Source of the DNA: a virus
Strand: one strand, 5' to 3'
IMG/VR virus record: IMGVR_UViG_3300015371_000125
Coordinates: 1-31,070 of that record
Length of the DNA stretch: 31,070 bases
Positions 3,169-16,816 of the stretch are shown piece after piece (the stretch's first letter is position 1; each line of letters starts with the position of its first letter). The notes beneath the pieces are model-generated. The model ran no database searches. It was not told where the DNA came from and saw only the letters and a program-made list of their open reading frames with translations. The translations under genes were made by a program, and so were the position numbers.

Positions 3169-3351
3169 TCAGAATCGTTTGAGATTGACACTTGGGTGGA
3201 CCGCAAAGACGCGGGCCCTTTCTCGCATGATGGCATAGCTTGTGCCAGCTAGCGTCACCTCAGTTAGGCCCCCTTGGGGCTTTGCTCGAGGAGTCTTGAC
3301 CTTGATGACCATGCCGTCGCTGGGACCGCCCATGATTTCGACCTGCATCAC
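3169..3351 (-). CDS. Small hypothetical protein, last gene of reverse operon
   Basis: A 60-residue protein (MMQVEIMGGPSDGMVIKVK...) that starts in an ATGA overlap with the stop of the upstream membrane protein gene, which supports it as translated. The pattern QVEIMGGPSDGMVIKV with later Tyr and Val strands looks like a small beta-rich protein; similar short GGPxDG proteins are common in actinobacterial phages, but I cannot assign a function. It is the promoter-distal gene of the five-gene reverse unit, with a terminator about 70 bp downstream. Confidence 0.65.
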   Translation of the reverse strand: MMQVEIMGGPSDGMVIKVKTPRAKPQGGLTEVTLAGTSYAIMRERARVFAVHPSVNLKRF

Positions 3352-3938
3352 TTCTCTGTCTCCTCGTTGAGGGCCTGTCGTAGCTGGGCCCGATGCTCTT
3401 CTAGGGAAACCGACTTGATCTCGTTGAATCCGTGCTCTGGCTCGGGCTCATCAAGCAACCTGGACATGATCGACATGGATTCCTCCGGCGAAAGTGGCGG
3501 CGGCTTCCCCTGGCGCTTGGCCACCCGCGCCGCTCGGCGCACCTGGCGCGCTGGAGTAGTTGGCCGCTTCTTGGTCTTCAGGTCGGTTACTGTCTGTGCT
3601 TCTGGCTCCCTCATTTCGGGAACCTCGCTCGGTGGGTAGGTCGGCCAGGTGGCCTTGTCCTTGGGTCGCGCGGGATTGATGTAGTTCGGTTCACGCTTTG
3701 CCGGGCGCCTAGTTGGCGGCTTAGTCGGATTGATGCGGGTCTTCTTGCTGATCAGCCACAGTGCGCCTGCCATACCGGCAGCAGTGGCGATCAGTACGCC
3801 GACCGCAACCATGAGCCAGGCCTTCCACTCGGTGGCGATCCACAGCCCAGCCACCACAGCGGCGACTATCCAGCCGAGGGACTCGATGATGACCTGGCGA
3901 TGCGCTGCCTTGCGGCGTGTGCGGCGTGCGGTAGTCAT
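3348..3938 (-). CDS. Membrane protein with two helices and basic cytoplasmic tail
   Basis: A 196-residue protein. A basic N-terminus (MTTARRTRRKAAHRQ) precedes two hydrophobic helices at about residues 17-36 and 41-64, followed by a long Lys/Arg/Pro-rich region (KTRINPTKPPTRRPAKRE, TKKRPTTPARQVRRAARVAKRQGK) and an acidic C-terminus (PLSPEESMSIMSRLLDEPEPE). ATGA overlaps on both sides place it inside a translationally coupled operon. The family is unknown to me. A membrane-anchored protein expressed against the late operon could act in superinfection exclusion or host modification; that is speculation from topology and placement. Confidence 0.75.
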   Translation of the reverse strand: MTTARRTRRKAAHRQVIIESLGWIVAAVVAGLWIATEWKAWLMVAVGVLIATAAGMAGALWLISKKTRINPTKPPTRRPAKREPNYINPARPKDKATWPTYPPSEVPEMREPEAQTVTDLKTKKRPTTPARQVRRAARVAKRQGKPPPLSPEESMSIMSRLLDEPEPEHGFNEIKSVSLEEHRAQLRQALNEETEK

Positions 3939-4138
3939 GGCTTACCCTCGCCCTTCTGGTTCCGCTTATCCCAGTAGTTGTGATGCTTCTGGCGCAAACT
4001 GGGACTCATGTCCCCCATGTGGCGCCACATCACCTGACCGTTGTCGCTCGGTGGAATGAAGGTGCCCCCCCCACGAAGACCCCCTGCATTCTCGGGGAAC
4101 TCGGCACCCATACCGAATACATCGGGAACCTTAGCCAT
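3935..4138 (-). CDS. Small hydrophilic hypothetical protein
   Basis: A 67-residue protein (MAKVPDVFGMGAEFPENAGG...). On the minus strand its ATG is preceded by AAGGAGAACGTC, the best ribosome site in the reverse operon, and its stop overlaps the next ATG (ATGA). Gly/Met/His-rich with a charged C-terminus (RQKHHNYWDKRNQKGEGKP); no membrane segment or known motif seen. The upstream membrane gene ends eight bases inside it. Confidence 0.65.
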   Translation of the reverse strand: MAKVPDVFGMGAEFPENAGGLRGGGTFIPPSDNGQVMWRHMGDMSPSLRQKHHNYWDKRNQKGEGKP

Positions 4139-4304
4139 GACGTTCTCCTTGGTGGTTGGTCCACAGCCTGGTGGCCGGCGGTATGGTTAGTAGCAGGAAG
4201 ATGATCATGGTTAGCCAGTGGTGATGGATAGCTAAGCCAGTGGCAAACACGAGGCCACACACCACTGACACCGAGTAGAACAGCACAGCACCACGACCCA
4301 GCAT
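4131..4304 (-). CDS. Small two-helix membrane protein
   Basis: A 57-residue protein from the ATG at 4304 (an in-frame TTG at 4313 would add three residues and overlap the upstream stop). Two hydrophobic stretches, about residues 7-25 (VLFYSVSVVCGLVFATGLA) and 31-46 (LTMIIFLLLTIPPATRL), predict a helical hairpin. It ends eight bases inside the next gene. Function not recognised; a small membrane protein next to another membrane protein in the same operon suggests an envelope-directed role for this unit. Confidence 0.6.
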   Translation of the reverse strand: MLGRGAVLFYSVSVVCGLVFATGLAIHHHWLTMIIFLLLTIPPATRLWTNHQGERHG

Positions 4305-4306
4305 GA

Positions 4307-4549
4307 CTACCAACCAGCCTCGGCGTCGATGCGACCGGCGATCTGGCGGTACAGCTCAGCCCCCTCGTACTCCAGCCAGAGATCCCGGTCTGATAGGTAA
4401 CAGATGGTCTCTTCGTTGATGGAGTAGCGATCGATGACATCAGAGCACTGGTCAAACGCATAGGTCTTGTAGACAGCAGTACGCATTGATCCAGTGGTGA
4501 ATGAGATGTGTTGCTCGATGGGTAGCTCAGGCAATGTTGTGATGGTCAT
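4307..4549 (-). CDS. First gene of reverse operon, hypothetical
   Basis: An 80-residue acidic protein (MTITTLPELPIEQHISF...) with a C-terminal DLWLEYEGAELYRQIAGRIDAEAGW-type helix. The ATG at 4549 is preferred over a GTG at 4564, because that GTG overlaps the promoter -10 region. Predicted transcription would begin at or within a base or two of this ATG, so the message may be leaderless, which is common in actinobacteria. No membrane helix or known domain. Stop TAG lies three bases before the next ATG. Confidence 0.65.
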   Translation of the reverse strand: MTITTLPELPIEQHISFTTGSMRTAVYKTYAFDQCSDVIDRYSINEETICYLSDRDLWLEYEGAELYRQIAGRIDAEAGW

Positions 4550-4555
4550 GCGGCC

Positions 4556-4584
4556 ATCATACACGGATAGCCGTGTGTTGTCTA
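4556..4584 (-). promoter_or_regulatory. Promoter of the reverse operon with dyad operator (copy A)
   Basis: Read on the minus strand: TAGACA at 4584-4579, a 17-nt spacer, TATGAT at 4561-4556. The spacer carries the dyad CACACGGCTATCCGTGTA (4577-4560), whose last TA is the start of the -10. The same architecture recurs at 14839-14867. A repressor bound here would block RNA polymerase. Transcription would start close to the ATG at 4549. Confidence 0.7.
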
Positions 4585-4856
4585 GTAAGTGTTAATGATC
4601 ATGGTTGTGTGTTGTTGTGTTGTTGATCATGTGTCTGACTAGGGAATAGAGATGGTGACAGACAAGGGGGGGAGGGGTCACATCGCTGTAATTCCCGGAA
4701 AAAGGCCATCCGTAGGCGGGGTGGCTCGCGATGCGTACGGGTTCCATCGGACATTTTGTTCGTGTACTGTTGCGCTCTGACCGCTGGGGGGCCAACTTGA
4801 CCGACCCCGGCAAATGATCTTGAAACGCTAAATGATCTTGAACACTCGGGGGAGCA
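4585..4856. other. Intergenic region upstream of terminase genes
   Basis: No gene is visible here. It contains two TGATCATG octamers (4596-4603 and 4624-4631) separated by a GT-rich stretch, a G-run (GGGGGGAGGGG near 4669), a GC-rich stretch around 4716-4740, and a 13-bp direct repeat close to the terminase start. Being the only sizeable gap between divergent transcription units, and next to the small terminase gene, it is the natural candidate for late promoter and packaging (cos or pac) sequences. I cannot identify an exact cos end. Confidence 0.5.
4812..4842 (+). repeat. 13-bp direct repeat before terminase small subunit
   Basis: AAATGATCTTGAA occurs at 4812-4824 and again at 4830-4842, 18 bp start to start, ending 14 bp before the small terminase ATG. 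An ACTTGAC element at 4795 partly resembles the repeat end. Spacing near two helical turns suits a protein-binding site such as one for the small terminase or a late regulator; that is inference. Confidence 0.55.
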
Positions 4857-5297
4857 ATGCCAGGTCCGCCGCCCAAGGCTGATAGCCAGCGCAGGCGCCG
4901 CAATGCGCCCATAGCCAATACCCGCATCCTGCCCGCCGAGGGCCGCGAGGGCGATCCCCCCGCCTGGCCACTCAGGACCGGTCCCGAAGATAACGAGGCT
5001 GCCATCTGGGCCGACCTCTGGGCCACGCCACAAGCAGTGGCCTGGGAGAGTCTTGGCTATCACCGCATTGTTGCTCGTTACGCCCGGATGCTCGCCCTCG
5101 CTGAAGAAAAGCTCCAGGCCGCACTCCTCGGTGAGACCCGCTCCCTTGAGGATCGCCTAGGCCTCACACCGATGTCAATGCTCCGGCTCCGCTGGGAGAT
5201 CGGGGCAAGTCAGGAGCGCAAGCTCGCCTCGGTCACCAAGATCGAGGAAGCCCCCAGGCCGCAGCGCCGGCTGATCATCGGGGGCGACGATGCCTAA
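4857..5297 (+). CDS. terS: Terminase small subunit
   Basis: A 146-residue protein starting MPGPPPKADSQRRRRNA. The GPPPK motif followed by a basic N-terminus is typical of the P27-like small terminase family of actinobacterial and other siphoviruses. A middle alpha-helical region (AIWADLWATPQAVAWESLGYHRIVARY) and a C-terminal segment (LRLRWEI) match the usual layout and length. It would recognise phage DNA and load the large subunit. The start has GGGGGAGCA just upstream. Its stop overlaps the next small gene by eight bases. Confidence 0.85.
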   Translation: MPGPPPKADSQRRRRNAPIANTRILPAEGREGDPPAWPLRTGPEDNEAAIWADLWATPQAVAWESLGYHRIVARYARMLALAEEKLQAALLGETRSLEDRLGLTPMSMLRLRWEIGASQERKLASVTKIEEAPRPQRRLIIGGDDA

Positions 5298-5463
5298 GAC
5301 CAAAGCCAAGCGAGAGACCCGCGCCGTCGAGTGCATTGACCAGAGCATCGCATGGTGCAACCAGCGCCGCAGAGAGGCTGACGTGCTGGAGCGAGTGGAG
5401 CTGGCGCACACCATTGACGAGCTCCTGGACGATCGCCTGATCCTGACCGGGGCCGACGAGTGA
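5290..5463 (+). CDS. Small hypothetical protein in terminase operon
   Basis: A 57-residue charged protein (MPKTKAKRETRAVECIDQ...HTIDELLDDRLILTGADE). It starts inside the end of the small terminase gene and ends in a GTGA overlap with the next gene, so it is very likely translated by coupling. Predicted helical, with a basic N-terminus and acidic C-terminus. No family recognised. Confidence 0.7.
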   Translation: MPKTKAKRETRAVECIDQSIAWCNQRRREADVLERVELAHTIDELLDDRLILTGADE

Positions 5464-5618
5464 CCATCATCTGGCCCGACCACGACCGCCGCGCGAAAGC
5501 ATGCGGCCCCAAGCTCGGCTGGAACTGCTCGGCCTGCTCCCGTTGGCGCCCATGGTTCCTCAAGCGCTGCCCCGACTGGCGTCAACATCAGGCCGCAGAG
5601 GACTTGGGGCTGTCATGA
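5460..5618 (+). CDS. Small Cys/Trp-rich protein, possible zinc ribbon
   Basis: A 52-residue protein with GTG start overlapping the previous stop (GTGA) and stop overlapping the methyltransferase start (ATGA). Sequence MTIIWPDHDRRAKACG, then NCSACSRWRPWFLKRC: four cysteines in a C-x(8)-CxxC-x(9)-C arrangement could bind zinc. Trp-rich. Function unknown; embedded in the packaging operon directly before a DNA methyltransferase. Confidence 0.7.
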   Translation: MTIIWPDHDRRAKACGPKLGWNCSACSRWRPWFLKRCPDWRQHQAAEDLGLS

Positions 5619-6259
5619 CTAAGCCGCGGCTCCTGGATCTCTTCTGTGGCGCTGGTGGCGCCGCGATGGGCTATTACCGTGCGGGCTTCGAGGTCGTGGG
5701 CGTCGATATCAACCCACAGCCGAGCTACCCGTTCGAGTTCCACCAGGCCGACGCGATGACCTTCCCGCTGGATGGTTTCAATGTGGCCCACGCGAGCCCA
5801 CCGTGCCAGGGATACACACAGCTCGGCAACAAAGACGGTCGTCACCCGCTCCTCATCGAGCCCATGAGGGATCGCCTCAAGGTGGCGGGGATTCCCTATG
5901 TGATCGAGAACGTGGTGGGCGCGCCACTCCTTAGTCCTCTGCTCCTGTGCGGCTCCATGTTCGGCCTGGGTGTCCGCAGACACCGACTCTTCGAGGCCGA
6001 CCCGATGCTCTGGTTTACGCCGGGGCCGTGTCGTCACGCTGGTCAGGAGATCCGCGCCTATTACGGCAAGAAGGGCAACAACGTCCAGGCGATTGGCCGG
6101 CCTCCTCTACTGCGCGGTTCGCTGGAGCACGCTCCCGCCGATATGGGCATCGACTGGATGACTACCTGGGATGAGCTCAGAGAGGCGGTCCCGCCCGCCT
6201 ATACGCAATGGATCGGCACAGAGATCCTCGAACGCCAGTTCGCAGAGGTGGGGCTGTGA
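5615..6259 (+). CDS. Short C5-cytosine DNA methyltransferase
   Basis: A 214-residue protein from the coupled ATG at 5615. Class I SAM-binding motif I (LLDLFCGAGGAAMGY, residues 6-20), motif IV with catalytic Cys64 (ASPPCQGYT), motif VI (ENV, residues 98-100), motif VIII (RRHRLFE, 121-127) and a C-terminal EAVPPAYTQWIG motif are all present, so it appears active. It transfers a methyl group from SAM to cytosine in a specific sequence. At about 214 residues the target-recognition region between motifs VIII and IX is only some 70 residues, shorter than in typical bacterial enzymes. No cognate restriction enzyme is visible, so it is likely an orphan that protects phage DNA. Confidence 0.88.
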   Translation: MTKPRLLDLFCGAGGAAMGYYRAGFEVVGVDINPQPSYPFEFHQADAMTFPLDGFNVAHASPPCQGYTQLGNKDGRHPLLIEPMRDRLKVAGIPYVIENVVGAPLLSPLLLCGSMFGLGVRRHRLFEADPMLWFTPGPCRHAGQEIRAYYGKKGNNVQAIGRPPLLRGSLEHAPADMGIDWMTTWDELREAVPPAYTQWIGTEILERQFAEVGL

Positions 6260-6471
6260 CCATCTGCGCCCACTGCACTCGCCCCGCGCTCGGGAACGCA
6301 TCCATGACCACCACGAGCGAGGGATATAGGCGCCTCTGCCATCCCGACTTCGGGCTGGACTGCTACTCGCTGGTAACCGTCTCTGGCCATGCCACGCCCT
6401 GCCTGTTCTGTAAGCAGATCCGCGACGAGCAGGACTCCTTGCGCGAGGCTGGCCACTTCGGGAGGGTCTGA
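6256..6471 (+). CDS. Small zinc-finger-like protein
   Basis: A 71-residue protein with GTG start in a GTGA overlap with the methyltransferase stop. It begins MTICAHCTRPALG and later has LCHPDFGLDCYSLV and TPCLFCKQI: CxxC, a central CHP...C and CLFC. This spacing of Cys/His pairs fits a compact zinc-binding fold. Such small proteins before the large terminase are frequent in actinophages. DNA or protein binding is likely; the specific job is unknown. Confidence 0.7.
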   Translation: MTICAHCTRPALGNASMTTTSEGYRRLCHPDFGLDCYSLVTVSGHATPCLFCKQIRDEQDSLREAGHFGRV

Positions 6472-6477
6472 TGCCTC

Positions 6478-8088
6478 ATGCCATGGCGCGGCCCGCAGTA
6501 CCCCGGCGAAGCTCCCACCCTGGGTGTCCTGGTCGGGAACTGGATCGAGGAGAACCTCATCATCCCGGACGGGGTTCACTTCGGCGAGCCGTACAAGCTG
6601 ACCGACGAGATGTGGAATCACGTCTTGCACCGGTACCAGCTCCGGCCGACAGCAGTCGAGGCGGACGCTGAGGATGCATTTCTCTACAAGGGATCTCAAC
6701 TCGTCAGGCCTCAGAAGTGGGGCAAGGACCCCTTCATGGCCGCGCTGGACATATTTCACGCTCTCGGCCCCTGTGTGTTCGCTGGATGGGACGCCAATGG
6801 TGACCCAGTGGGCCGTCCCCACCCATCTGCGTGGATCGTCGTCGCCGCAACCGCAGAAGACCAAGTCGACAACACCTGGCGGCCGATCCTGAACATGCTC
6901 CGTGACGGACCGCTTGCTGACACTCCGGGCCTCGACATCGGCGAGACCAGAATCAAGCTCCCCGGAATCGGCTGGATAGATCCAGTCACCAGATCGGCCA
7001 AGGCTCGCCTGGGTGCCCGATATACACACGCCTCGCTGACTGAGACCCATCTGCTCAACGGCGAGGGACCCACTGGCGGTCTGACGTTCGTTCGAGCGAT
7101 CAAGCGCAACGTTGGCGGCATGAATGGGATGTGGATCGAGGGCACCAACCCCTGGGACCCCACCGAGGACAGCGCTGCTCAGAAGACTTATGAGGCCAAG
7201 GCTCGGGATGTCTTTGTCGACTACCGCAGACCTCGGTCCCGGCCGGACCTGGACGATGAAGAGGCGGTGTTAGCCGAGCTCCGCCACGTCTACGGGGATT
7301 CGTTGCGGTCCCGGGGCGGCTGGGTTTCTGAGCGGCGCATCCTCTCCGAGGTGCAGGACCCGGCAACCGGGGAGAGTGAGGCTCGGAGGTACTACCTCCA
7401 GGAGATCACCGCGGGCACCTCCGATGCGATCAACGCCCCACGCTGGCTCTCACTGGCCCGAACCGAGGACCCACTGGTAGCTGGCGAGGAAGTAGCCCTC
7501 GGATTTGACGGCTCGCGGTCTCGCGACGCCACGGCGATATGGATCTGTCGCATTCGTGACGGGCGACTATTCAAAGGCCGCATCTGGGTTCCGGCTGAGT
7601 GCGAGGGCGGCAGGGTCCCGCGGCTCGAGGTCGACGGCGAGATGAATGACATCTTCGGCGTCTATGACGTGAAGTACCTTTTCTATGACCCGTGGATGTG
7701 GCAGGACTACGGAGACGTGTGGTCCGCCCGCTGGCCTGGCCGCGTTGTGGAGTTCGCGACCAACGTCGAGGCCCGCATGGACAAGCTGATCGAGCGCTTC
7801 CAGACGGCATACAAGGCTGGTGAGCTCACCCACGATGGGGATGAGACGCTCACCCAGCACGCCAAGAATGCGGCACTGGCCAAGGGCAAGAAGAAAGCAC
7901 CGCGCGAAGACGACGATCCGGGCAACCCAGCCAGCAAGTACTACCTGAAGCTGGCCAAGAAGCGTCACGGTCTGCTAATCGACGCCTTCGTGGCCGCGCA
8001 TCTTGCGTACGCGGCGCGAGGTCAAGCGGTCGAGGACGGGGCCCTGGAGCCCAAGCGCAAAGTCGAGCTCTGGGGGTTCTACGAGTGA
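6478..8088 (+). CDS. terL: Terminase large subunit
   Basis: A 536-residue ATPase/nuclease that pumps DNA into the prohead. N-terminal ATPase: a Walker A-like RPQKWGKDP at about residues 78-86 and an adenine/coupling region (WIVVAATAEDQVDNTW). C-terminal RNase H-like nuclease: LGFDGSRSRDATAIW near residue 343 supplies the first Asp, FYDPWMWQDYGD near 402 the second acidic site, and LLIDAFVAAHLAYA near 500 the last Asp. Length is normal. The start ATG at 6478 has GGAGGG upstream. The stop overlaps the next small gene (GTGA). Confidence 0.92.
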   Translation: MPWRGPQYPGEAPTLGVLVGNWIEENLIIPDGVHFGEPYKLTDEMWNHVLHRYQLRPTAVEADAEDAFLYKGSQLVRPQKWGKDPFMAALDIFHALGPCVFAGWDANGDPVGRPHPSAWIVVAATAEDQVDNTWRPILNMLRDGPLADTPGLDIGETRIKLPGIGWIDPVTRSAKARLGARYTHASLTETHLLNGEGPTGGLTFVRAIKRNVGGMNGMWIEGTNPWDPTEDSAAQKTYEAKARDVFVDYRRPRSRPDLDDEEAVLAELRHVYGDSLRSRGGWVSERRILSEVQDPATGESEARRYYLQEITAGTSDAINAPRWLSLARTEDPLVAGEEVALGFDGSRSRDATAIWICRIRDGRLFKGRIWVPAECEGGRVPRLEVDGEMNDIFGVYDVKYLFYDPWMWQDYGDVWSARWPGRVVEFATNVEARMDKLIERFQTAYKAGELTHDGDETLTQHAKNAALAKGKKKAPREDDDPGNPASKYYLKLAKKRHGLLIDAFVAAHLAYAARGQAVEDGALEPKRKVELWGFYE

Positions 8089-8261
8089 ATGTGGTAATCG
8101 CTGGAGTGACCTCCGGGATCGGTGCGATACTCACCGTCCTCGCGGCTTTCTTTTTAGCTGGCTGGGCTGCCGCGCTGGGGGCGGCTGGAATCATGTTGCT
8201 CCTGGTGGGCCTCCTCCTGCTCCCGGTCGACCGGCCAGCGCCACCTAGGCGGCGTCCGTGA
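8085..8261 (+). CDS. Small two-helix membrane protein between terminase and portal
   Basis: A 58-residue protein with GTG start overlapping the terminase stop and a stop overlapping the portal start (GTGA at both ends). Two hydrophobic helices, about residues 3-27 (VVIAGVTSGIGAILTVLAAFF) and 28-46 (GAAGIMLLLVGLLLLPV), end in a Pro/Arg tail. Similar tiny membrane proteins occur at this place in some actinophage late operons. Role unknown; an accessory holin-like function is possible. Confidence 0.7.
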   Translation: MNVVIAGVTSGIGAILTVLAAFFLAGWAAALGAAGIMLLLVGLLLLPVDRPAPPRRRP

Positions 8262-9715
8262 ATCTCCTTCAGCGCCTTCGCGGCGGCTCTCGGGCGATGC
8301 CCCCGTATTTTGGTGTGGACACCTATGCAGCGATGGTTAACGACGCCATGGCCGGCTATTACGCCTCTGGCAACCCGCCCATGGAGACGACACTGGGCAA
8401 CCTTGAGGCCGAGCCGATCGAGGACTCGTTTCTCGGCTTCGTGCGCGGTGCCTATAAGGCCAACGGCCCGATTTTTTCGTGCATGGTGGTTCGCCAGCTC
8501 GTCTTTTCTGCGGTCCGCTTCCAGTTCCAGAGATTTCAGAACGGCCGGCCGAGTGAGTTCGTCAACCCGTCGAACCTGAGACTCCTCGAGCGGCCCTGGA
8601 TCGGCGGCACGACGCAGGACCTCCTGGCCCGGATGCTTCAGGACGCCGACACGGCGGGCAATTCGTACTGGACGCTGTGGCGGCCTGACCTTGTGGACAG
8701 CGCCATGGGCGCTCGCGAGGAGCTTGTCCGGCTGCGTCCTGACTGGGTCCAGATCCTGCTGAGGCCCCGCATGGACCCCCGTGGGTATGGCCAGGACGGT
8801 CAGCGCAAACTTGCTCAGCTCGGTTGGGAACGTTTGGGCTATCTCTACACCGAAGGCGGCGCAAGGTCGGGTGCAGATCCGGTTTTTCTACAGCGGGACG
8901 AGGTTGCCCACTTCGCACCGCTGACTGATCCTGAATTCAGCTACCGCGGCATGAGCTGGATCACCCCACTGGTCCGTGAGGTCATGGCCGACAAGCTGAT
9001 GACCGAGCATCAGATGCAGTTCTTCGAGAATGGCGCGACGCCCAACCTCGCGATCATCTATCCGATCGAGGCCTCTTACGACGAGGTCAAGAAGTTCCGG
9101 GATCTGATGCGCGCCGAGCACGAGGGCGTGGAGAACGCCTATAAGGACCTTCACATCGGCCAAGGCGCTGACGTGCGACCCGTGGGCGCGGATTTGCGGC
9201 AAATTGAGTTCGAGACCGTCCGGGCGCAAGGTGAGACCCGTATCGCCATGGCCGCCCGGGTTCCTCCGATCATCGCCGGCATGTCCAAGGGTCTTGACTC
9301 TGCCACCTATAGCAACTACGGCCAGGCTCGCCGCGCGTTCGCCGACCTGACCATGCACCCCATGTGGGGCAATGCCTCCGGCTCGATGGAGACGATTCTG
9401 CCGCCGCCCAACTTCGCCACACGGCTCTGGTACGACGCGCGGGATGTGCCTTTCCTTCGCGAGGACAGCAAGGACGCCGCGGAGGTCCAGGCAGCCCAGG
9501 CTCAGACAATTGCAACCCTTACACGCGAGGGCTTCACCCCGGAGAGTGTCGTCAATGCCGTCCTGTCGGGCGACTACGGACTCCTGAAGCACACCGGACG
9601 CGTCTCGGTTCAGCTCTACGCGGCAGACGGCTCGGACGCCGAGGCGCCACCCAAGCCCAAGGCACTCCCAGCACCCAAGGAGGACCAAGGTGACACAGGC
9701 GCTTTTGCAGCGTAA
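8258..9715 (+). CDS. Portal protein (HK97-like)
   Basis: A 485-residue protein forming the dodecameric DNA entry ring. Typical features: SFLGFVRGAYKANGPIFSCMVVRQLVFS near the start, LLARMLQDADTAGNSYW, a DEVAHFAPLTDPEFSYRGMSWI segment, LMTEHQMQFFENGATPNLAI and the long C-terminal GMSKGLDSATYSNYGQARRAFADLTMHPMW region. Length is as expected. The disordered C-terminus (PPKPKALPAPKEDQGDTG) overlaps the start of the protease gene by 26 bases. Confidence 0.92.
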   Translation: MNLLQRLRGGSRAMPPYFGVDTYAAMVNDAMAGYYASGNPPMETTLGNLEAEPIEDSFLGFVRGAYKANGPIFSCMVVRQLVFSAVRFQFQRFQNGRPSEFVNPSNLRLLERPWIGGTTQDLLARMLQDADTAGNSYWTLWRPDLVDSAMGAREELVRLRPDWVQILLRPRMDPRGYGQDGQRKLAQLGWERLGYLYTEGGARSGADPVFLQRDEVAHFAPLTDPEFSYRGMSWITPLVREVMADKLMTEHQMQFFENGATPNLAIIYPIEASYDEVKKFRDLMRAEHEGVENAYKDLHIGQGADVRPVGADLRQIEFETVRAQGETRIAMAARVPPIIAGMSKGLDSATYSNYGQARRAFADLTMHPMWGNASGSMETILPPPNFATRLWYDARDVPFLREDSKDAAEVQAAQAQTIATLTREGFTPESVVNAVLSGDYGLLKHTGRVSVQLYAADGSDAEAPPKPKALPAPKEDQGDTGAFAA

Positions 9716-10652
9716 GGCCTCGGCGGTCGAGCGAGCTGGCCTCAGCGGGGCCGCTCAGTTCAAGACACGCGCCGAAGGTGAGGGCACTGGCGACGGCCTC
9801 ACCCTCAGCGGGGTCGCGGCGGTTTTCAACAAGCCCACGATTATCAACTCCTGGGAGGGCCACTTCCGCGAGCAACTGGCTAACGGCTCATGGCGGAAGA
9901 CCCTCCGCGAGATGACTCCGGTGATGCAGTTCGATCACGGCGAGCACGCCTCCATCGGCAGCCTTCCGATCGGCTATTACACCAGGACTGCTGAGGAGAA
10001 TGACGGCGTCGCGGTCGAAGGCCGGCTATTCAAGGCCCCCATCTTTGAGCCAGTCCGCGAAGGTATCGCGGCTCAGGCGATCCGCGGGATGTCCTTCCGC
10101 TTTGAGGTGATCCGCGACAAGTGGGTGACCCCGGACGGCAAGGTCCTCCGGGACAACGAGGAGATCCTTCGCGCGATCTACACGACCCCCATTGACGCTG
10201 ATGAGGGCGAGCTCATGACTCGCACCATCCAGGAGGTCCGGGTCCCCGAGATGGGCCCCGTCGTCTTTCCCGCATACGCAGAGACTTCGGTCGATGTGCG
10301 TTCCCGAGCGGTCGTAATCGACCTCGGTGGAACCCGAGAGGCCCAGATTTCCCAGCTCAAGCGAGCGCAAGACCAGCTCGCCGAGATGATCAAGCAACTA
10401 GACGCCAAAGAGAGGGCCGCCCCCGAGCCGCGAGCAGGGCACTCGACAGAGGTCGAGCCGCCTGAGGAGCACTCGGAGGATGAGGTCGACTCTGAGGAGG
10501 CAGAACCCGAGCCGCGAGTAGAGCACTCAGCCCCCGAGGCTGAGCCGCCCGAGGAGCACTCGGCCGAGCGCCAAACAACCGACATATTCGACGAGGCCCG
10601 TGCGCGCATACAGGCACGCATGGCCAAAATCAGAAAGGAAACACCCCTGTGA
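9690..10652 (+). CDS. Prohead protease (HK97 family, S78)
   Basis: A 320-residue protein with GTG start and AAGGAGG upstream. The protease domain spans about residues 25-200, with LSGVAAVFNKPT, then MQFDHGEHASIGSLPIG (likely His83) and IRGMSFRF (likely Ser135), the usual S78 catalytic pair. It cleaves the scaffold (delta) domain of the capsid protein during head maturation. After a coiled coil (LKRAQDQLAEMIKQLDAKE), residues about 255-300 form a very acidic tail containing two similar blocks (PEPRAGHS...EPPEEHS and PEPRVEHS...EPPEEHS). The tail may act as scaffold; that is inference. The stop overlaps the capsid start. Confidence 0.9.
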   Translation: MTQALLQRKASAVERAGLSGAAQFKTRAEGEGTGDGLTLSGVAAVFNKPTIINSWEGHFREQLANGSWRKTLREMTPVMQFDHGEHASIGSLPIGYYTRTAEENDGVAVEGRLFKAPIFEPVREGIAAQAIRGMSFRFEVIRDKWVTPDGKVLRDNEEILRAIYTTPIDADEGELMTRTIQEVRVPEMGPVVFPAYAETSVDVRSRAVVIDLGGTREAQISQLKRAQDQLAEMIKQLDAKERAAPEPRAGHSTEVEPPEEHSEDEVDSEEAEPEPRVEHSAPEAEPPEEHSAERQTTDIFDEARARIQARMAKIRKETPL

Positions 10653-12289
10653 GCTCATTTCACAAGGGACCGCAGCCGCTCATCGTGAACGGCTCCCCGG
10701 TCATGTTTCGCGGGCGCCCGGTTTTTGAAATCGCTGGCGGGTCCGTAGACACAGAAGAGCGCGGTGCTGAGGAATTCACTCACCCCGAGTGCCTCAACCG
10801 GCTCGACGAGATCACCCAGGAGGTCGAACGCCTCTATAACAAGGAAGCCCGTACATCCCAGGACGAGGTTTATCTTCGTCAGTTGGATGCCGAATTCAAC
10901 AGCGTCGACGCTCGCCGCGCGAAGCTGGAGGCAGAGGCCACCAAGAAGCGGATGGAGTCTCGCATGGAGCAGACTCGCAAGCAGGTTGGCGACTTCATCC
11001 GTGGCCACGCCTCGGCCCTCAAAGCCGAAGGTGGCGCTACGGGTTCCAGCGGCAGCATGGACGCCTACGACCGGGACGCGATCCTGGAGCCGGACTCCAT
11101 TGAGTCCAAGCGGTTCCGCAATCCATGGAACATCACCGAGATGCGGGTCTTCAACCGCAGCGCTGAGGCTGTAGCCCAGGAGTTCCGCGCACGCGCATTG
11201 TCGGCCGTCGAGAAGATGCAGGGCGCTAACGACAAGATCCGCGCCGCCGGCACCAAGATCATCGAAGAGCACGACGACGCTGACGGCAACCTGTCCCAGC
11301 TCGTGCTCGCCATCTCCTCACCGGAGTACTACCGGGCATGGTCCAAGCTGGCCAAGGACCCGAAGATGGCGGAGCTTGAGAAGGATGAGAAGCAAGCCCT
11401 CTCCCGTGCGCAGCAACTGCATCGCGCAATGAGCCTGACCGACGCCGCTGGCGGTTATCTGGTGCCTTTCCAGCTCGATCCGACCGTGATCTTGACCTCT
11501 GACGGCTCGTACAACCAGATCCGCCAGATCGCTCGTCAGGTCGTGGCTACCGGTGACGTGTGGAATGGTGTGAGCGCTGGTGCGGTGAGCTGGTCCTTCG
11601 ACGCGGAAGCGGCTGAAGTCTCAGACGACAGCCCGACCTTCGCTGGCCCAGCCATCACCATCCGGACCGCCCGCGGCTTTGTGCCGATCTCGCTCGAGGC
11701 TCGGATGGATGCGGCCAATGTGACCCAAGAGGTCGGCCGTCTCCTGGCGCAGGGCAAGGACGACCTGGAGGCCGTTAAGTTCGCCACCGGCTCGGCCACT
11801 GATGACCCGATCGGCATCGTGACCGCCCTGGCGGCGTCCTCGCCTTCGGTCATCGTGTCTTCCACCACGGCGGACACTTGGGCGTTCAATGACATCTATA
11901 AGCTCCAGAACGCCCTGCCGGAGCGCTACCAGAGCCGCGCCGCTTGGCTGGCCAACCGCGCTATCTACAACCTGGCCAAGCAGACCGCACCGTCGACCAC
12001 GGTGTGGAATGACCCAGGCAATGGCGCACCGAGGGAGCTCCTGGACGCTCCGCGGTACACAGCCGAAGCGATGGACGGAACGGTTACCGGATCAACGACT
12101 AACTACGTCCTGATCTATGGCGACTTCTCCAACTACGTGATCGCGGACCGGATCGGCATGACCGTCGATTTCATCCCTCACCTGTTCGGCTCCAACCGGC
12201 GCCCGACTGGGCAGTCCGGCTGGTTCGCCTACTACCGCGTAGGGGCGGATTCGGTGAACGATGCCGGTTTCCGCATGCTGGACCTGTAG
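10649..12289 (+). CDS. Major capsid protein (HK97 fold)
   Basis: A 546-residue protein, GTG start in a GTGA overlap with the protease. Residues about 45-240 are a charged, helical, coiled-coil delta-like scaffold region (HPECLNRLDEITQEVERLYNKE). The capsid core follows: SLTDAAGGYLVPFQLDPTVILTSDGSYNQIRQIARQV, ISLEARMDA, LLAQGKDDLEAVKFATGSATDDPIGIV, AAWLANRAIYNLAKQ and the terminal GWFAYYRVGADSVNDAGFRMLDL, all characteristic of the HK97 phage capsid family. A separate scaffold gene is absent, consistent with an internal scaffold removed by the protease. Confidence 0.95.
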   Translation: MSSFHKGPQPLIVNGSPVMFRGRPVFEIAGGSVDTEERGAEEFTHPECLNRLDEITQEVERLYNKEARTSQDEVYLRQLDAEFNSVDARRAKLEAEATKKRMESRMEQTRKQVGDFIRGHASALKAEGGATGSSGSMDAYDRDAILEPDSIESKRFRNPWNITEMRVFNRSAEAVAQEFRARALSAVEKMQGANDKIRAAGTKIIEEHDDADGNLSQLVLAISSPEYYRAWSKLAKDPKMAELEKDEKQALSRAQQLHRAMSLTDAAGGYLVPFQLDPTVILTSDGSYNQIRQIARQVVATGDVWNGVSAGAVSWSFDAEAAEVSDDSPTFAGPAITIRTARGFVPISLEARMDAANVTQEVGRLLAQGKDDLEAVKFATGSATDDPIGIVTALAASSPSVIVSSTTADTWAFNDIYKLQNALPERYQSRAAWLANRAIYNLAKQTAPSTTVWNDPGNGAPRELLDAPRYTAEAMDGTVTGSTTNYVLIYGDFSNYVIADRIGMTVDFIPHLFGSNRRPTGQSGWFAYYRVGADSVNDAGFRMLDL

Positions 12290-12314
12290 CCATACACACC
12301 TACCCGTGTAGGGT
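12287..12314 (+). promoter_or_regulatory. Promoter-like element with dyad operator (copy C)
   Basis: Directly at the capsid stop codon: TAGCCA at 12287-12292, a 16-nt spacer and TAGGGT at 12309-12314. The spacer carries the dyad TACACACCTACCCGTGTA (12293-12310), the same motif and orientation relative to the -10 as copies A and B. It could re-initiate transcription for the downstream head gene. The -35 is weaker than in the other two copies. Confidence 0.5.
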
Positions 12315-12320
12315 GAGACG

Positions 12321-12386
12321 TGGGGCCCGGAGAGACACCCAAGTCCGGTGGGACATCCTGGTCATCAGTCCGGAAACCGGGCCCCG
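12321..12386 (+). ncRNA. Structured leader RNA upstream of post-capsid gene
   Basis: A perfect 9-bp inverted repeat, GGGGCCCGG (12322-12330) and CCGGGCCCC (12377-12385), encloses a 46-nt interior. Inside, TCCGG and CCGGA can pair, and CCGGAAACCGG forms an alternative small hairpin with the outer stem. It ends about 28 nt before the next ATG, after which AAGGAG serves as ribosome site. This may be a stabilising leader, an attenuator or a regulatory element; no known riboswitch class recognised. Confidence 0.45.
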
Positions 12387-12413
12387 CAACACAATCGGAT
12401 TTAAGGAGATCAC

Positions 12414-12956
12414 ATGGCCAACCAGGGCTCAGGACTCATGCGAGTCAAGGAGGGCGGCGGGTTCGCAGTCTTCAACCAGGACGGCATCCCACGGGCCTAT
12501 GCAAGTGGCCAGTTGGTCCTCCCCGATGACCCCATCGTCAGGTCACATGGCCACATGTTGGAGCCTGCCGAGACGGGTATCGAGCAGGCAACAGCCTCTC
12601 CGGGGGAACGGCGCCGCCTCCGGCTCCCAAAAGGCAACACAGTTAAGGGCGCTACCGAGGCCAACCCCAACGGAAGGAATCAGTCAGTGGCACCACACGC
12701 GCTCGATCCGAGCGACCCAGCAAGCCCAGCATCCACATTCGCCACAGCTCAGCCCGCCGCGGGCGTCGTAGCTGACGACGTACCCGATGAGCAGAACCCA
12801 GCCGGCGGCCCGAAGGCCTCTGACGCTGGCAACATCGGCGGCGTGGACGAGGAGAAGGTCCCGACCAGCCAGGGCAAGGATGCTCCGGGATCTGGCCAGA
12901 CCCCTCAGGAGGGCGCCAAGAAGGCCCAGGCCGAGCAGAGCAAGGGCGACAAGTAA
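12414..12956 (+). CDS. Post-capsid head-associated protein, function unknown
   Basis: A 180-residue protein (MANQGSGLMRVKEGGGFAVFNQDGIPRAYASGQLVLPDDPIV...). The N-terminal 70 residues look folded, with GGGFAVFNQDGIPRAYASG resembling short proteins encoded right after the capsid gene in many actinophages. The rest is low-complexity, rich in Ala, Pro, Gly, Gln and Lys, ending AEQSKGDK. AAGGAG lies upstream of the ATG. A head decoration or capsid-stabilising role is plausible from position. A promoter-like element and structured leader precede it. Confidence 0.7.
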   Translation: MANQGSGLMRVKEGGGFAVFNQDGIPRAYASGQLVLPDDPIVRSHGHMLEPAETGIEQATASPGERRRLRLPKGNTVKGATEANPNGRNQSVAPHALDPSDPASPASTFATAQPAAGVVADDVPDEQNPAGGPKASDAGNIGGVDEEKVPTSQGKDAPGSGQTPQEGAKKAQAEQSKGDK

Positions 12957-12966
12957 CATCACGACA

Positions 12967-13005
12967 GGAGCCCTCCTGAGTTTGTCACGATCCTCGGAGG
13001 GCTCC
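12967..13005 (+). terminator. Strong hairpin after post-capsid gene, likely terminator or processing site
   Basis: GGAGCCCTCC (12967-12976) pairs perfectly with GGAGGGCTCC (12996-13005) around a 19-nt loop, 11 bp after the stop codon. No U-tract follows, so in a high-GC host it may act as a U-less terminator or as an mRNA 3' stabiliser for the abundant capsid message. Confidence 0.55.
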
Positions 13006-13013
13006 ACCACATA

Positions 13014-13051
13014 GGCAGGCCCCTCGGAAACACGACCCCCGAGGGGCCGCC
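13014..13051 (+). terminator. Second strong hairpin, 13 bp with one bulge
   Basis: GGC-A-GGCCCCTCGG (13014-13027) pairs with CCGAGGGGCC-GCC (13039-13051), 11-nt loop, A17 bulged. It follows the first hairpin by eight bases, forming a tandem pair. No U-tract follows. Tandem GC hairpins of this kind often end highly expressed transcripts. Confidence 0.5.
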
Positions 13052-13151
13052 TGTGCTAGATTTCTAGGCCTCGGGTAGCTCCCGAGTAAGGCCCCTGTCG
13101 GCCTGATGACAGGCGAGATCCCAATCGCAACTGGGCGCGTATGATACGGCA

Positions 13152-13252
13152 GCGAGACGGCCGGTCGTGGGTGACAAGCGGCTCTCAGGTACCGGGGCCT
13201 AATCCCACAGCAACCCCCGGAGGACCGCGCGGAAACCTGGGGGTTTTGCTTT
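13152..13252 (+). ncRNA. Candidate small RNA with pseudoknot and terminator
   Basis: A TATGAT box at 13140-13145 could start an RNA near 13152, and an intrinsic terminator ends at about 13252. Between them CCGGT (13161-13165) can pair with ACCGG (13191-13195), and GTGGG (13167-13171) with CCCAC (13204-13208), a crossing arrangement that makes an H-type pseudoknot. No good -35 is seen. It could equally be the leader of the downstream HNH gene. Entirely a structural prediction by eye. Confidence 0.35.
13212..13252 (+). terminator. Intrinsic terminator before HNH gene
   Basis: AACCCCC (13212-13218) and GGGGGTT (13239-13245), extended inside by AGG/CCT across a GG bulge, are followed by TTTTGCTTT. 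This is the most canonical intrinsic terminator on the + strand in the head region. Genes downstream must be reached by read-through or by another promoter. Confidence 0.65.
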
Positions 13253-13267
13253 CCCCGGGGGGATCTG

Positions 13268-13582
13268 ATGGCCCGCGACAATAAGGGCTTTGTCTGCCAC
13301 AGCCACACGACGAAGGTCTCTTATGAGATCCACCACGTCTGGCCCAAGGAGTACCACGGGCCCGACACCAAGGCGAACAAGGTCAAGATCTGCTGTAACG
13401 CCCATTCGGACATCCATTACTTGCTGGAGCGGATGTTAGGCGGAAAGCTGTATGACCTAAGAGAGTTCGGCCCCCAGGTCCGCCAGCTCGCCCAGAGTGG
13501 CTATGAGCAGGTAGTCGCCTACGCCGATAGTCTGGCTAGCCAGATGGAAGACAGGAGGTCTGATGCGTCCAGATCTCCCTGA
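13268..13582 (+). CDS. HNH nuclease-like small protein after capsid genes
   Basis: A 104-residue protein (MARDNKGFVCHSHTTKVS...). The core YEIHHVWPKEYHGPDTKANKVKICC-type region, split as EIHHVWPKEYHG, then ANKVKICCNAH and SDIHYLL, has the His-His, Asn and final His spacing of an HNH beta-beta-alpha metal fold. The zinc CxxC pairs of the longer HNH proteins are absent. Start ATG has GGGGGGA upstream. It overlaps the next gene by 20 bases. It may be a packaging helper or a free-standing homing nuclease; a structural role with a lost nuclease activity cannot be excluded. Confidence 0.65.
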   Translation: MARDNKGFVCHSHTTKVSYEIHHVWPKEYHGPDTKANKVKICCNAHSDIHYLLERMLGGKLYDLREFGPQVRQLAQSGYEQVVAYADSLASQMEDRRSDASRSP

Positions 13583-14057
13583 ACTCCTCACCGGAGTCCC
13601 GCTCTCCGGCTTTGAGCCCCAAGATGTCCGCGAGGCCAGCGAGGCGATCCGCTCTTATTGCGGTTGGCACATTGCGCCGGCTATTAGCGACACAGTGACT
13701 CTTCGTATCGAGCGTGGCCGCGGGACTGTCATCCTCCCTACTCTTCAGCTCAACTCCATCACCTCGGTCACCGTGGACGGCACGCTATGGTCCGCGAGTG
13801 ATTACGAGGCCTATCTGGGCCGTACGGCCCGCATTGACTTGGGCCGCGGTGTCCTGGCGCGGCGTGTGGTGGTCGTTTTCAATCACGGCTTTACCGAGGC
13901 CCCGGGCGATGTGATCCGCGTCGTCAAGAGCCTTGCCCGCAGTGGTGCGACGGGCTCGAGCGTGCGCGTGGGCTCGGTACAGATCAGCTCCTCGACCAGC
14001 ACGGTCTCGGCCAGTCTGACTAGCCTGAGGCCCTACCAACTCCCGGCGGTTGCCTAA
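13563..14057 (+). CDS. Head-tail connector (adaptor) protein
   Basis: A 164-residue protein with an excellent ribosome site (AGGAGGTCTG) before the ATG. Helical N-terminus (DVREASEAIRSYCGWHIAP), then beta segments (TVTLRIERGRGTVILPTLQLNSITSVTVDGTLWSASDY) and VVVVFNHGFTEAPGDVIRVVKSLA. This layout fits the Gp6/Gp15-type adaptor proteins that sit under the portal ring. Position right after capsid and before the stopper agrees. TAATG overlap with the next gene. Confidence 0.8.
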   Translation: MRPDLPELLTGVPLSGFEPQDVREASEAIRSYCGWHIAPAISDTVTLRIERGRGTVILPTLQLNSITSVTVDGTLWSASDYEAYLGRTARIDLGRGVLARRVVVVFNHGFTEAPGDVIRVVKSLARSGATGSSVRVGSVQISSSTSTVSASLTSLRPYQLPAVA

Positions 14058-14398
14058 TGGCACTGCCCACCGAGATCGCGATCGACACGGTCACCCGCGT
14101 ACGCGCAACCACCACGACCGACTCCCATGGCAACGAGATCCGCTCCTGGGCCACCGCGACGACCTCGGACATCGTTGGGTGCTCCATGCAACCCGAGGAC
14201 GGCTCAGAGATCATCCTGGGGCGCGAGGAAGTCGTCTCGCGCTGGCAGCTCTTCCTCCCTCCGAACGCCGATCTGTTGCCGAGTGACCGCGTCCGCTTCG
14301 AGGGCATCACGTACGAGGTCGACGGATCGGTCCAGAAGTGGCCCGACATTGGTGGGCTGGGACATAAGTCTTGCCTGCTGAAGCTGGTCGAGGGCTAG
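14057..14398 (+). CDS. Head closure (stopper) protein
   Basis: A 113-residue protein (MALPTEIAIDTVTRVRATTTTDSHGNEIRSW...). The beta-rich pattern with a SMQPEDGSEIILGREEVVSRWQLFLPP centre and SDRVRFEGITYEVDGSVQKWPD near the end is typical of SPP1 gp16-like stopper proteins encoded after the adaptor. It plugs the portal channel after packaging and binds the tail. Start overlaps the adaptor stop (TAATG). Its 3' end overlaps a doubtful reverse reading frame. Confidence 0.8.
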   Translation: MALPTEIAIDTVTRVRATTTTDSHGNEIRSWATATTSDIVGCSMQPEDGSEIILGREEVVSRWQLFLPPNADLLPSDRVRFEGITYEVDGSVQKWPDIGGLGHKSCLLKLVEG

Positions 14399-14625
14399 GT
14401 CCTCAATTGCCGCTTGTTGTGTCTATCTAGACGCCAGGACACGTTGCGGCATCGCAGCCGCCACAGCCAGTGGAATGGGCGATAACACCACACCCAGGCC
14501 AGCAACCACAGGAGCGGGGTTTGGTTGTTGACGACCCGATGCCAGTGCCAGCGAGATAACCGGTCCCAAAACGGAAGACTCCGCTCGTATGAGTGGAGTC
14601 TTCGATTAATGAAGCGATTGATCAT
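14395..14625 (-). CDS. Doubtful small Trp-rich reading frame
   Basis: A 76-residue frame (MINRFINRRLHSYERS...) whose ATG overlaps the stop of the reverse gene upstream (TGATG). It has a Trp-rich hydrophobic stretch (TPLLWLLAWVWCYRPFHWLW) that could be a membrane segment. Against it: a perfect hairpin followed by TTTT on the minus strand lies within its first 25 codons, which would end transcription. It may be expressed only by read-through, or not at all. Confidence 0.35.
   Translation of the reverse strand: MINRFINRRLHSYERSLPFWDRLSRWHWHRVVNNQTPLLWLLAWVWCYRPFHWLWRLRCRNVSWRLDRHNKRQLRT
14568..14603 (-). terminator. Intrinsic terminator of the 58-residue reverse gene
   Basis: Left arm GAAGACTCCGCTC (14574-14586) pairs with GAGTGGAGTCTTC (14591-14603) along 13 positions with one G-T wobble and a four-base loop. 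Read on the minus strand it is followed by CGTTTTGGG, giving an intrinsic terminator 22 bases after the stop at 14625. On the plus strand no T-run follows. Confidence 0.7.
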
Positions 14626-14801
14626 CAGCCAGCCAGCGCCTTGTGCTCCAACACGGTGCGGTTCCCGTCCGCGTCCATCCAGACGCGCGGGCCGAGCTTG
14701 GTGAAGGCTTGATCCATGCTGGCCACGTAGCCCCGGACATCGTTGATATCGAAGGTGCCCAGCTTCCGACCCCGCTTGCTGGTGATCACTGCCTGCCACA
14801 T
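14625..14801 (-). CDS. Small reverse-strand protein under dyad-controlled promoter
   Basis: A 58-residue protein starting MWQAVITSKRGRKLG at the ATG at 14801, with AAAGGAAA upstream; a longer in-frame start at 14867 would run through the promoter and is rejected. The sequence (GTFDINDVRGYVASMDQAFTKLGPRVWMDADGNRTVLEHKALAG, in two parts) suggests a small alpha/beta fold. No family recognised. It is a complete one-gene unit read against the late operon, with its own promoter and terminator, which is typical of morons expressed outside the late programme. Confidence 0.7.
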   Translation of the reverse strand: MWQAVITSKRGRKLGTFDINDVRGYVASMDQAFTKLGPRVWMDADGNRTVLEHKALAG

Positions 14802-14838
14802 CTCGGTTTCCTTTCGTTGCTCCTTGCTGATGTCTAAA

Positions 14839-14867
14839 ACAATACACGGATAGGCGTGTAGTGCCAA
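14839..14867 (-). promoter_or_regulatory. Promoter with dyad operator (copy B)
   Basis: Read on the minus strand: TTGGCA at 14867-14862, a 17-nt spacer, TATTGT at 14844-14839. The spacer contains the perfect dyad TACACGCCTATCCGTGTA (14860-14843), with 6-bp arms and a 6-bp centre. The layout is base-for-base aligned with copy A. Start would be near 14832, giving a leader of about 30 nt. The site also lies just upstream of the forward GH16 gene and could affect it. Confidence 0.75.
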
Positions 14868-14885
14868 CTACTTTGGGGGGATACG

Positions 14886-16118
14886 TTGCACAAATCTTCG
14901 GCGGCACTCGCGGCGCTTGTACTCTGCGCCCTGGCCAGCCCGGCGTACGCAGCTCCTAGGCCGGCACCCGCGCCGGATACCACGATCACGTCCGTCAAAG
15001 ACAACGACTCTCCGGTCGGGGTCTTCATCGACGAGGACGGCGGCGGTGACGAGGGTGTGGTCGTTACCTACACCACTACTAACGCCACGGGTGCTCAGTT
15101 CAGCTTTGATAGTGGCGCTTGGCAGTCGTTGGGGGCGACTCCCGCATCGGTGCCTTTTCCTGTCGGGACGCACACGCTGAACGTGCGCGCTACGGCTAAG
15201 GGTGGCGTAGTCGATCCGACACCAGCAACGGTGTCGATCACCATGTGCCCGCAAGCTGGCTGTGCTACCGCGTCGCCTACACCGACGCCAACGCCGACGA
15301 CGGCTAGCCCTACGCCCACGCCGACCCCTACGCCCACCACAGCGAGCCCGACGCCGACCCCTACCACAGCAAGCCCTACGCCCACGCCGACATCGACGCA
15401 AAGCGCAGCGCCGCAGCCCAGCGGCCCCACCGGGACCTGGAATCTGGCCTTTCAAGACGAGTTCAGCGGCACCTCGCTGGACACCACGAAATGGAACCCG
15501 CAAGACGGGCGCACCAACAACAACGTGATCAGCGAGGCCGATGACATCACCGTGTCCGGCGGCAATGCGCACGTCTTCCTCAGCCAATCCGGCACCCAGG
15601 TCTACGGCGGATTCGCCGAGACCCGCACTTTCAACGTGATGCCCGGGACCGCGGTTGAGGCACGGGTCTATATGCCCGGAGCGTGCGCGGCCGGCGCAAC
15701 CTCGTGCAGCGAGGACATCTATGACTGGCCCGGCCTGGTGTGGACATCGGCCCGCGTCGACTGGTCCGAAGATGGCGAATACGACATCGCAGAGGGCCTC
15801 GGCGGCAGCCTGACGATCAATTACCACTCATGCAACGACACGACACCGACCCCTGGCTGTGGCGATGTGTCCAACAATGGCAGCCCCACTCCAACCTGCT
15901 GCTACGGCAACGAATGGCACACCGTCACCCTGGTGCGCGGCGCAACAAGCTCCAAGATCTATTGGGATGGCACGCTACAGCGCACTATTGCAGTGACGGA
16001 CTCCGGCAAGGCGCAGTCGATCATCATGAATATCGGCAAGTCCAACAGCCGCGCGGTGCATCTTGGCACGCAGGGTGAAGCGCTTGTCGACTACGTACGG
16101 GCCTGGACGCCGGCATGA
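14886..16118 (+). CDS. Secreted GH16-like glucanase
   Basis: A 410-residue protein, TTG start with GGGGGG six bases upstream. Signal peptide at residues 1-22 (basic start, hydrophobic core, cleavage after AYA). Residues 23-125 form an Ig-like beta module, 126-182 a Pro/Thr-rich linker (repeats of TASPTPTPT), and 183-410 a concanavalin-like GH16 domain starting WNLAFQDEFSGTSLDTTKWN. The catalytic signature GEYDIAEG (E298-x-D300-x-x-E303) is intact, followed by LTINYHS and IYWDG. Likely an exported enzyme cutting beta-linked glucan or galactan. A paralogous domain lies in the tail protein at 25152. The stop overlaps the peptidase start. Confidence 0.85.
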   Translation: MHKSSAALAALVLCALASPAYAAPRPAPAPDTTITSVKDNDSPVGVFIDEDGGGDEGVVVTYTTTNATGAQFSFDSGAWQSLGATPASVPFPVGTHTLNVRATAKGGVVDPTPATVSITMCPQAGCATASPTPTPTPTTASPTPTPTPTPTTASPTPTPTTASPTPTPTSTQSAAPQPSGPTGTWNLAFQDEFSGTSLDTTKWNPQDGRTNNNVISEADDITVSGGNAHVFLSQSGTQVYGGFAETRTFNVMPGTAVEARVYMPGACAAGATSCSEDIYDWPGLVWTSARVDWSEDGEYDIAEGLGGSLTINYHSCNDTTPTPGCGDVSNNGSPTPTCCYGNEWHTVTLVRGATSSKIYWDGTLQRTIAVTDSGKAQSIIMNIGKSNSRAVHLGTQGEALVDYVRAWTPA

Positions 16119-16816
16119 CCGAGGGTCCTCTGGGCCGGCGGCCGCCCACTGACTGGCGACACGTCGAGCGCTACCCACTGAGCGCCCTCGCGGGCCCGGA
16201 TCGACCAACCGAGGTCCCGAGTCCGGTCGGGGTCAACTGGTATGCAGAGTTTGACCATCCAGTCCAGAGCAACAAGGACCGGCGTTGGCGAGTAGCCCAG
16301 AGCGGCAGGCTGACGCGCGTCCGCGGCGGCCATTGCGTGTGTTTCTCCCCACCGTTCGTGACTGACACGACGCGCTGGTGGAGGTTCTACGACCAGGGCC
16401 AAGAGGGCGCCTGCGTGGGTTTCGGAGCCTCCCGCGCCATGTCCCTGCTGAACCGCAAAAGCTATGACGCTCGCTGGCTGTATCACGCAGCTCAGGAGAT
16501 CGACGAGTGGGCTGACACGCCCCCCGAGGAAGGCACGAGCGTACGCGCTGGTCTGGAGATCCTCCGCACTAGCGGTCATAGGGTGATGCGGGCTGGCTTC
16601 CCGCACCCCCCCAACCCGCGCGAGGGGATTGCGGTGTATCGCTGGGCGACCAGTATCGACGACTGGCTAGCCGCCATTGGCAGGCCCGGCGCCGACGAGG
16701 TCCCCTTCCTTAACTCATGGGGCACGACATACAGCCACATCACCTGGATGCCGACCGAGGTTGTGGAGCGGCTCCTCCGTGAGGACGGGGAGTTCCCCGT
16801 GATCACGGACAAATGA
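16115..16816 (+). CDS. Papain-like cysteine peptidase with permuted active-site order
   Basis: A 233-residue protein in ATGA overlap with the GH16 gene. Papain signatures: DQGQEGACVGF (oxyanion Gln94, nucleophile Cys100) followed by YDARWLYHAAQ, and FLNSWGTTY (Asn200). The His that normally lies between them appears instead upstream as VRGGHCVCF (His73), together with the PVGVNWYAEFD strand that normally precedes it. The order is thus His-Cys-Asn rather than Cys-His-Asn, consistent with circular permutation of the C1 fold. No signal peptide. Substrate unknown; it could process a virion protein or a host target. It is coupled to a ParB-like gene downstream. Confidence 0.75.
   Translation: MTEGPLGRRPPTDWRHVERYPLSALAGPDRPTEVPSPVGVNWYAEFDHPVQSNKDRRWRVAQSGRLTRVRGGHCVCFSPPFVTDTTRWWRFYDQGQEGACVGFGASRAMSLLNRKSYDARWLYHAAQEIDEWADTPPEEGTSVRAGLEILRTSGHRVMRAGFPHPPNPREGIAVYRWATSIDDWLAAIGRPGADEVPFLNSWGTTYSHITWMPTEVVERLLREDGEFPVITDK

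Follow-up and report, generated by a model that had tools for sequence, protein, structure and literature searches.

A symmetric dyad in the promoter spacers of small phage accessory units, set apart from the presumed immunity operator and found together with a small helix-turn-helix protein

The nearest described analogue of the element considered here is the SAS/ESAS system of the cluster K mycobacteriophages, in which a short conserved element is found near gene starts, in many copies per genome, and is rare in the host (PMC3203893). The SAS sequence, GGGATAGGAGCCC, lies beside the start codon, and some SAS copies have an inverted repeat directly upstream, with ESAS arms of 17 bp and a variable spacer (PMC3203893). 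The likeness consists of a short conserved element, its many copies and, for some of them, the inverted repeats (PMC3203893). The arrangement described below differs in that an 18-bp dyad occupies a promoter spacer, with a second element, TCAGCAAGG, just after the expected transcription start; in place of a GGGATAGGAGCCC core next to the start codon, it is TCAGCAAGG that is found, some 40-50 bases before the start codon.

Other known systems share single features with this one. The stoperators of the cluster A mycobacteriophages are asymmetric repressor sites that also terminate elongation (PMC9283540). They resemble the present case in that several copies of one regulator's site are dispersed outside the immunity region (PMC9283540), whereas the present dyads are symmetric sites lying across promoters, and differ from the GTCTA sites found in the repressor region. 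Apl of phage 186 acts at direct repeats spaced by one helical turn (PMC7498355); the candidate regulator here is, like Apl, a small winged helix-turn-helix (HTH) phage protein, but the site is an inverted repeat. As in MerR-family promoters, the dyad lies between the -35 and -10 boxes, and a model of the candidate resembles the MerR DNA-binding domain, albeit with weak E-values; unlike in that family, the spacers are 16-18 bp, and the candidate has no room for a dimerisation helix or a sensor domain. Among papers on Arthrobacter cluster AS-type phages retrieved in a literature search that was not exhaustive (PMC12701499, PMC11845989, PMC13064005 and PMC12821334), there is no mention of a repeat, motif, promoter or palindrome.

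The window, which is the whole stretch of DNA analysed, is the whole of a virus record of 31,070 bases with siphovirus packaging, head and tail genes, and its closest named DNA relatives are mycobacterium phages such as Babsiella and Brujita together with Gordonia phages, at about 67%. Three dyads, here called A, B and C, had been reported in a preliminary description, and all three are present in the window. The features associated with A and B are as follows.

4560-4577, minus strand: candidate operator dyad A, TACACGGATAGCCGTGTG, in a promoter spacer; 6 of 7 outer pairs complementary
4579-4584 (read 4584-4579), minus strand: -35-like TAGACA of promoter A, 17 bp from the -10, read directly
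4556-4561 (read 4561-4556), minus strand: -10-like TATGAT of promoter A, beginning inside dyad A
3169-4549, minus strand: unit A, five small ORFs (4307-4549, 4131-4304, 3935-4138, 3348-3938 and 3169-3351)
14843-14860, minus strand: candidate operator dyad B, TACACGGATAGGCGTGTA, in a promoter spacer; 6 of 7 outer pairs complementary
14862-14867 (read 14867-14862), minus strand: -35-like TTGGCA of promoter B, 17 bp from the -10, read directly
14839-14844 (read 14844-14839), minus strand: -10-like TATTGT of promoter B, beginning inside dyad B, read directly
14822-14830, minus strand: leader element TCAGCAAGG of promoter B, common to the dyad promoters of other phages
14625-14801, minus strand: gene B, a single gene of 58 aa

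For A and B the -35-like boxes, the 17-bp spacing and the overlap of the dyad with the -10 box are all as had been described. Both promoters lie on the minus strand, with A heading the five-ORF unit and B the 58-residue gene. Promoter A looks leaderless, since its -10 box is followed, after 6 nt, by the ATG at 4549. The further claim that all three dyads lie in promoters holds for the well-spaced A and B, whereas C is accompanied by TAGGGT but has no -35 box.

In 100 dinucleotide shuffles of the window, a search with an unchanged mismatch limit gave no match. A symmetrised matrix built from 17 distinct sites of other phages, with the window and its close relative L003 left out, ranked exactly B (25.7), A (22.3) and C (19.9) as the top three positions of the window, with the fourth at 12.3. 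The expected numbers per simulated window, from 3,000 simulated windows, were 0.0003, 0.0003 and 0.0017 for the three dyads. A site repeated at several promoters of one genome above chance is found both in the window, with three copies, and in the AS-type phages, with two or three per genome.

Statistically, copy C is real, and one relative has kept it, but its role as an operator is uncertain. Its surroundings contain the following features.

12293-12310, plus strand: dyad C, TACACACCTACCCGTGTA, 3' of the capsid gene; 5 of 7 outer pairs complementary
12320-12387, plus strand: GC-rich stem between the capsid gene and the next gene, with arms 12320-12330 and 12377-12387
12414-12956, plus strand: post-C gene, with a weak match to the head-tail connector family PHROG 9538

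The dyad overlaps TAGGGT (12309-12314, plus strand), with neither a -35 box nor the TCAGCAAGG leader. There is a considerable chance, if somewhat short of even, that this copy alone is part of the post-capsid spacer, for example of an RNA structure, and no operator: besides lacking both promoter elements it lies on the forward strand within the late genes, with a large GC stem on its 3' side; GC-rich stems occur at the same place in L003 and L020-L023, and the more distant relatives have such stems without the dyad. The independent matrix, however, scores copy C far above chance, and the dyad is retained together with its 3' flank in L003, a short contig whose portal and capsid are 78-83% identical to those of the window, despite divergence of the bases directly upstream. 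No promoter dyad was found in the window's capsid relatives at 52-67% identity.

Further occurrences at promoters were found in 37 AS-type records, in metagenomic contigs and in G003. A scan of IMG/VR for the dyad with a -10 box gave four contigs, three of them with one near-identical site, and all four have TTG-type -35 boxes, which the pattern did not require; with CAGCAAG added to the pattern, seven contigs were found, and a looser version gave fourteen stretches. A BLAST search of phage records with one such promoter matched 39 Arthrobacter records, of which 37 hold most of the promoter. These 37 records of cultured Arthrobacter cluster AS-type phages have two or three dyad places each, and they point to an operator class that was not found described in the literature examined. 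The dyad is also present in metagenomic relatives and in G003, a phage otherwise unrelated to the AS-type group. In the five AS-type genomes that were read whole, the dyad copies head reverse-strand units in the interval from the lysis genes to the integrase. The promoter spacers in these other phages are 16-18 bp by inspection, and several of the AS-type dyad promoters have poor -35 boxes.

The TCAGCAAGG element is found 11-12 bases after the dyad in the AS-type promoters and at most metagenomic sites, with the variant ACAGCAGG in the leaders of L056 and L065. In dyad promoters and in others alike, either form lies some 7-8 bases past the -10 box. Because it is also present after promoters that have no dyad, TCAGCAAGG is treated as a separate leader element, and the two forms possibly represent a conserved 5' leader of these phages. 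When promoter B and the G003 promoter were used as short queries against phage records, they matched by the leader only, or by chance; the leader-only matches were to Arthrobacter Yangvirus phages (E 0.02).

The best candidate for a protein that binds the dyad is a small HTH protein of about 60-75 residues that matches PHROG 597 (DNA binding protein; E 3.6e-24 and 1.2e-23), with PHROG 66, 'excisionase and transcriptional regulator', as the second profile match; in Abidatro it is gp27 and in Chickaboom gp25. Matches to the AlpA family (Pfam PF05930) were obtained for four of eight members, with a best E of 0.0015, and did not pass the cut-off (12.1 vs 21 for the member shown). A PDB sequence search with the HTH profile gave nothing significant, and the fold model (mean pLDDT 75) resembles the DNA-binding domains of MerR, BldC and RacA with weak E-values.

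When 19 proteins from AS-type phages or G001 were compared, among them the repressor, ParA and further HTH proteins, the candidate alone was present in all nine of the other dyad phages examined. G003 is a 39-kb contig with a consensus dyad promoter, and the only proteins that it has in common with the AS-type group are the HTH protein, at 79-85% identity, and the terminase, which matches at about 27%; the dyad promoter is at one end of the contig and the HTH gene at the opposite end, and the two may form one unit if the genome is circular or permuted. Of 15 records in which the HTH protein is at least 79% identical, 14 have the dyad in a promoter, and the remaining one is a contig that starts shortly before the gene. 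A matrix built from window-type sites only passes 11 of 15 loci at this level of identity and 3 of 65 at 72% or less (Fisher p 4e-8), with both the p-value and the co-occurrence inflated by the kinship of the AS-type phages; G003, L071 and L084 are the more independent cases, and among the carriers of both the dyad and the HTH protein only G003 is clearly unrelated.

In G001, G004 and G008, the dyad lies directly upstream of the HTH gene itself. In L071, which has an HTH protein of about 60% identity and is one of the three passing loci in the more divergent set, a promoter with a TACAC-type dyad lies 252 bp upstream of the HTH gene, with TTGCGG, a 17-bp spacing and a leaderless start, and in L084, also at about 60% and below the matrix threshold, a perfect TACACCCGAACGGGTGTA dyad with TATAGT lies 360 bp upstream of the gene. 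Three further records have one TACACG dyad each and lack the HTH protein. The 31,070-base window fragment contains no HTH homologue, so the link between dyad and HTH protein in the window phage is made by analogy.

A ParA gene is found at 14872-15513 of G001, with homologues in G006, G008, L056 and L065, which are relatives of the AS-type phages. In none of these ParA-bearing relatives could a homologue of the tyrosine integrase of either the AS-type phages or G003 be detected, and it is possible that they are plasmid prophages. Since they keep the HTH protein without a detectable AS-type integrase, a role as regulator fits the candidate better than one as excisionase.

The DNA shows a motif with its promoter geometry, which recurs across phages, differs from the GTCTA sites and co-occurs with the HTH gene. 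From this it may be proposed, with about an even chance of being right, that the dyad is the operator of a phage-encoded regulator other than the immunity repressor, for which the PHROG 597 HTH protein is the best candidate, and that this regulator represses its own gene and the accessory units. In such a scheme, TACACGNNTANNCGTGTA would be an operator in the spacer between the -35 and -10 boxes that covers the first bases of the -10, and the dyad promoters would serve small accessory units that lie mostly on the reverse strand. The AlpA/MerR-like protein would bind the dyad and block RNA polymerase at promoters of near-normal spacing (16-18 bp), and would thereby act as a repressor of its own operon and of a few accessory units; in the window phage, its gene would be in the missing part of the genome.

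Repression with autoregulation, itself given roughly equal odds, is favoured because the dyad takes up the whole spacer and reaches the -10 box, and because the spacers are 16-18 bp. MerR-type activation needs a promoter spacer of 19-20 bp, and the spacers here are 17 bp in A and B and 16-18 bp elsewhere, although the poor -35 boxes of several AS-type promoters would also fit activation. Proteins of AlpA/MerR-like fold often bind direct repeats, which counts against the candidate. If the small HTH protein is the regulator, this would provide a function for a protein that many records of actinobacteriophages label only 'DNA binding' or 'hypothetical', and would define a regulatory circuit common to phages with different immunity.

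An extension of this proposal, put forward tentatively, is that the AlpA/MerR-like protein and the operator-plus-leader promoter form a portable regulon that moves between unrelated phages of different immunity. Accessory genes of phages with a common host would then come under a single switch, and such phages could regulate one another.

The presence of the element in phages as unrelated as the window phage, G003 and the AS-type group could also be explained by an Arthrobacter-like host transcription factor that binds the dyad and is used by unrelated phages through their shared host, and leader B does resemble the leaders of another Arthrobacter phage group. This is unlikely, however, as the full promoter pattern of dyad, -10 box and CAGCAAG has a single match in 84,980 species genomes (257 Gb of cellular sequence), which is a chance hit in an unrelated, AT-rich MAG with a context unlike the others, and no match in the plasmids searched. 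It is similarly improbable that the dyad is bound by a phage regulator distinct from both the immunity repressor and the AlpA/MerR-like protein: several other HTH genes are present in dyad-controlled units, namely Abidatro gp30 (PHROG 664) and G001 16015-16296 (PHROG 4629), but each of these proteins is missing from several dyad-bearing phages.

The repressor regions of the AS-type phages have a different dyad, with the following places.

L040 24690, 24785, 32744 and 35169: GTCTA-N7-TAGAC sites, with matching places in L041-L044, G001, G006 and G008

Each AS-type genome read has four such sites, two between the repressor gene and a divergent HTH gene and two at right-arm promoters, compared with a chance expectation of about 0.04 per genome, an estimate from base counts that assumes equal bases; Leona has one additional GTCTA pair with a 4-bp gap. 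From this placement, GTCTA-N7-TAGAC is likely to be the immunity-repressor operator of the AS-type phages. It is absent from the window and from G003, both of which have the TACACG dyad, and the AS-type repressor intergenic regions have no TACACG dyad; the window fragment excludes the window phage's own repressor region. Because the GTCTA sites mark the repressor region and are absent from the window and G003, the TACACG dyad is assigned to a second operator class, distinct from the presumed immunity operator of the AS-type phages. The preliminary description had proposed one regulator, perhaps an immunity repressor, for the accessory units. A single regulator acting on small accessory units is well supported, since the same arrangement recurs in many other phages, but its identification with the immunity repressor is not supported, since where a repressor is annotated it is the GTCTA dyad that marks the repressor region. 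Several promoter sites per genome, as with many repressors, and the location of A and B in a region normally silent in a prophage are what an immunity-repressor operator silencing accessory genes in the lysogen would show, but this is very improbable, as in AS-type phages with an annotated repressor it is GTCTA-N7-TAGAC and not TACACG that occupies the repressor intergenic region and the two right-arm promoters, and no repressor homologue is detectable in G003, which has the TACACG dyad.

A search for defence families among the dyad-controlled genes found none; in the same search, the Abidatro repressor gp35 itself had a weak match to capH. In a scan with a leaderless pattern, dyads of the same form were found in leaderless promoters at L142 546-577, L143 722-753 and L144 1172-1203. 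The three records have -35 boxes of the TTG type, lack an HTH homologue and apparently come from phages of other hosts, and their dyads may well be similar sites of other regulators. In the window, a cytosine-type DNA methyltransferase gene at 5615-6259 is flanked by terminase genes.
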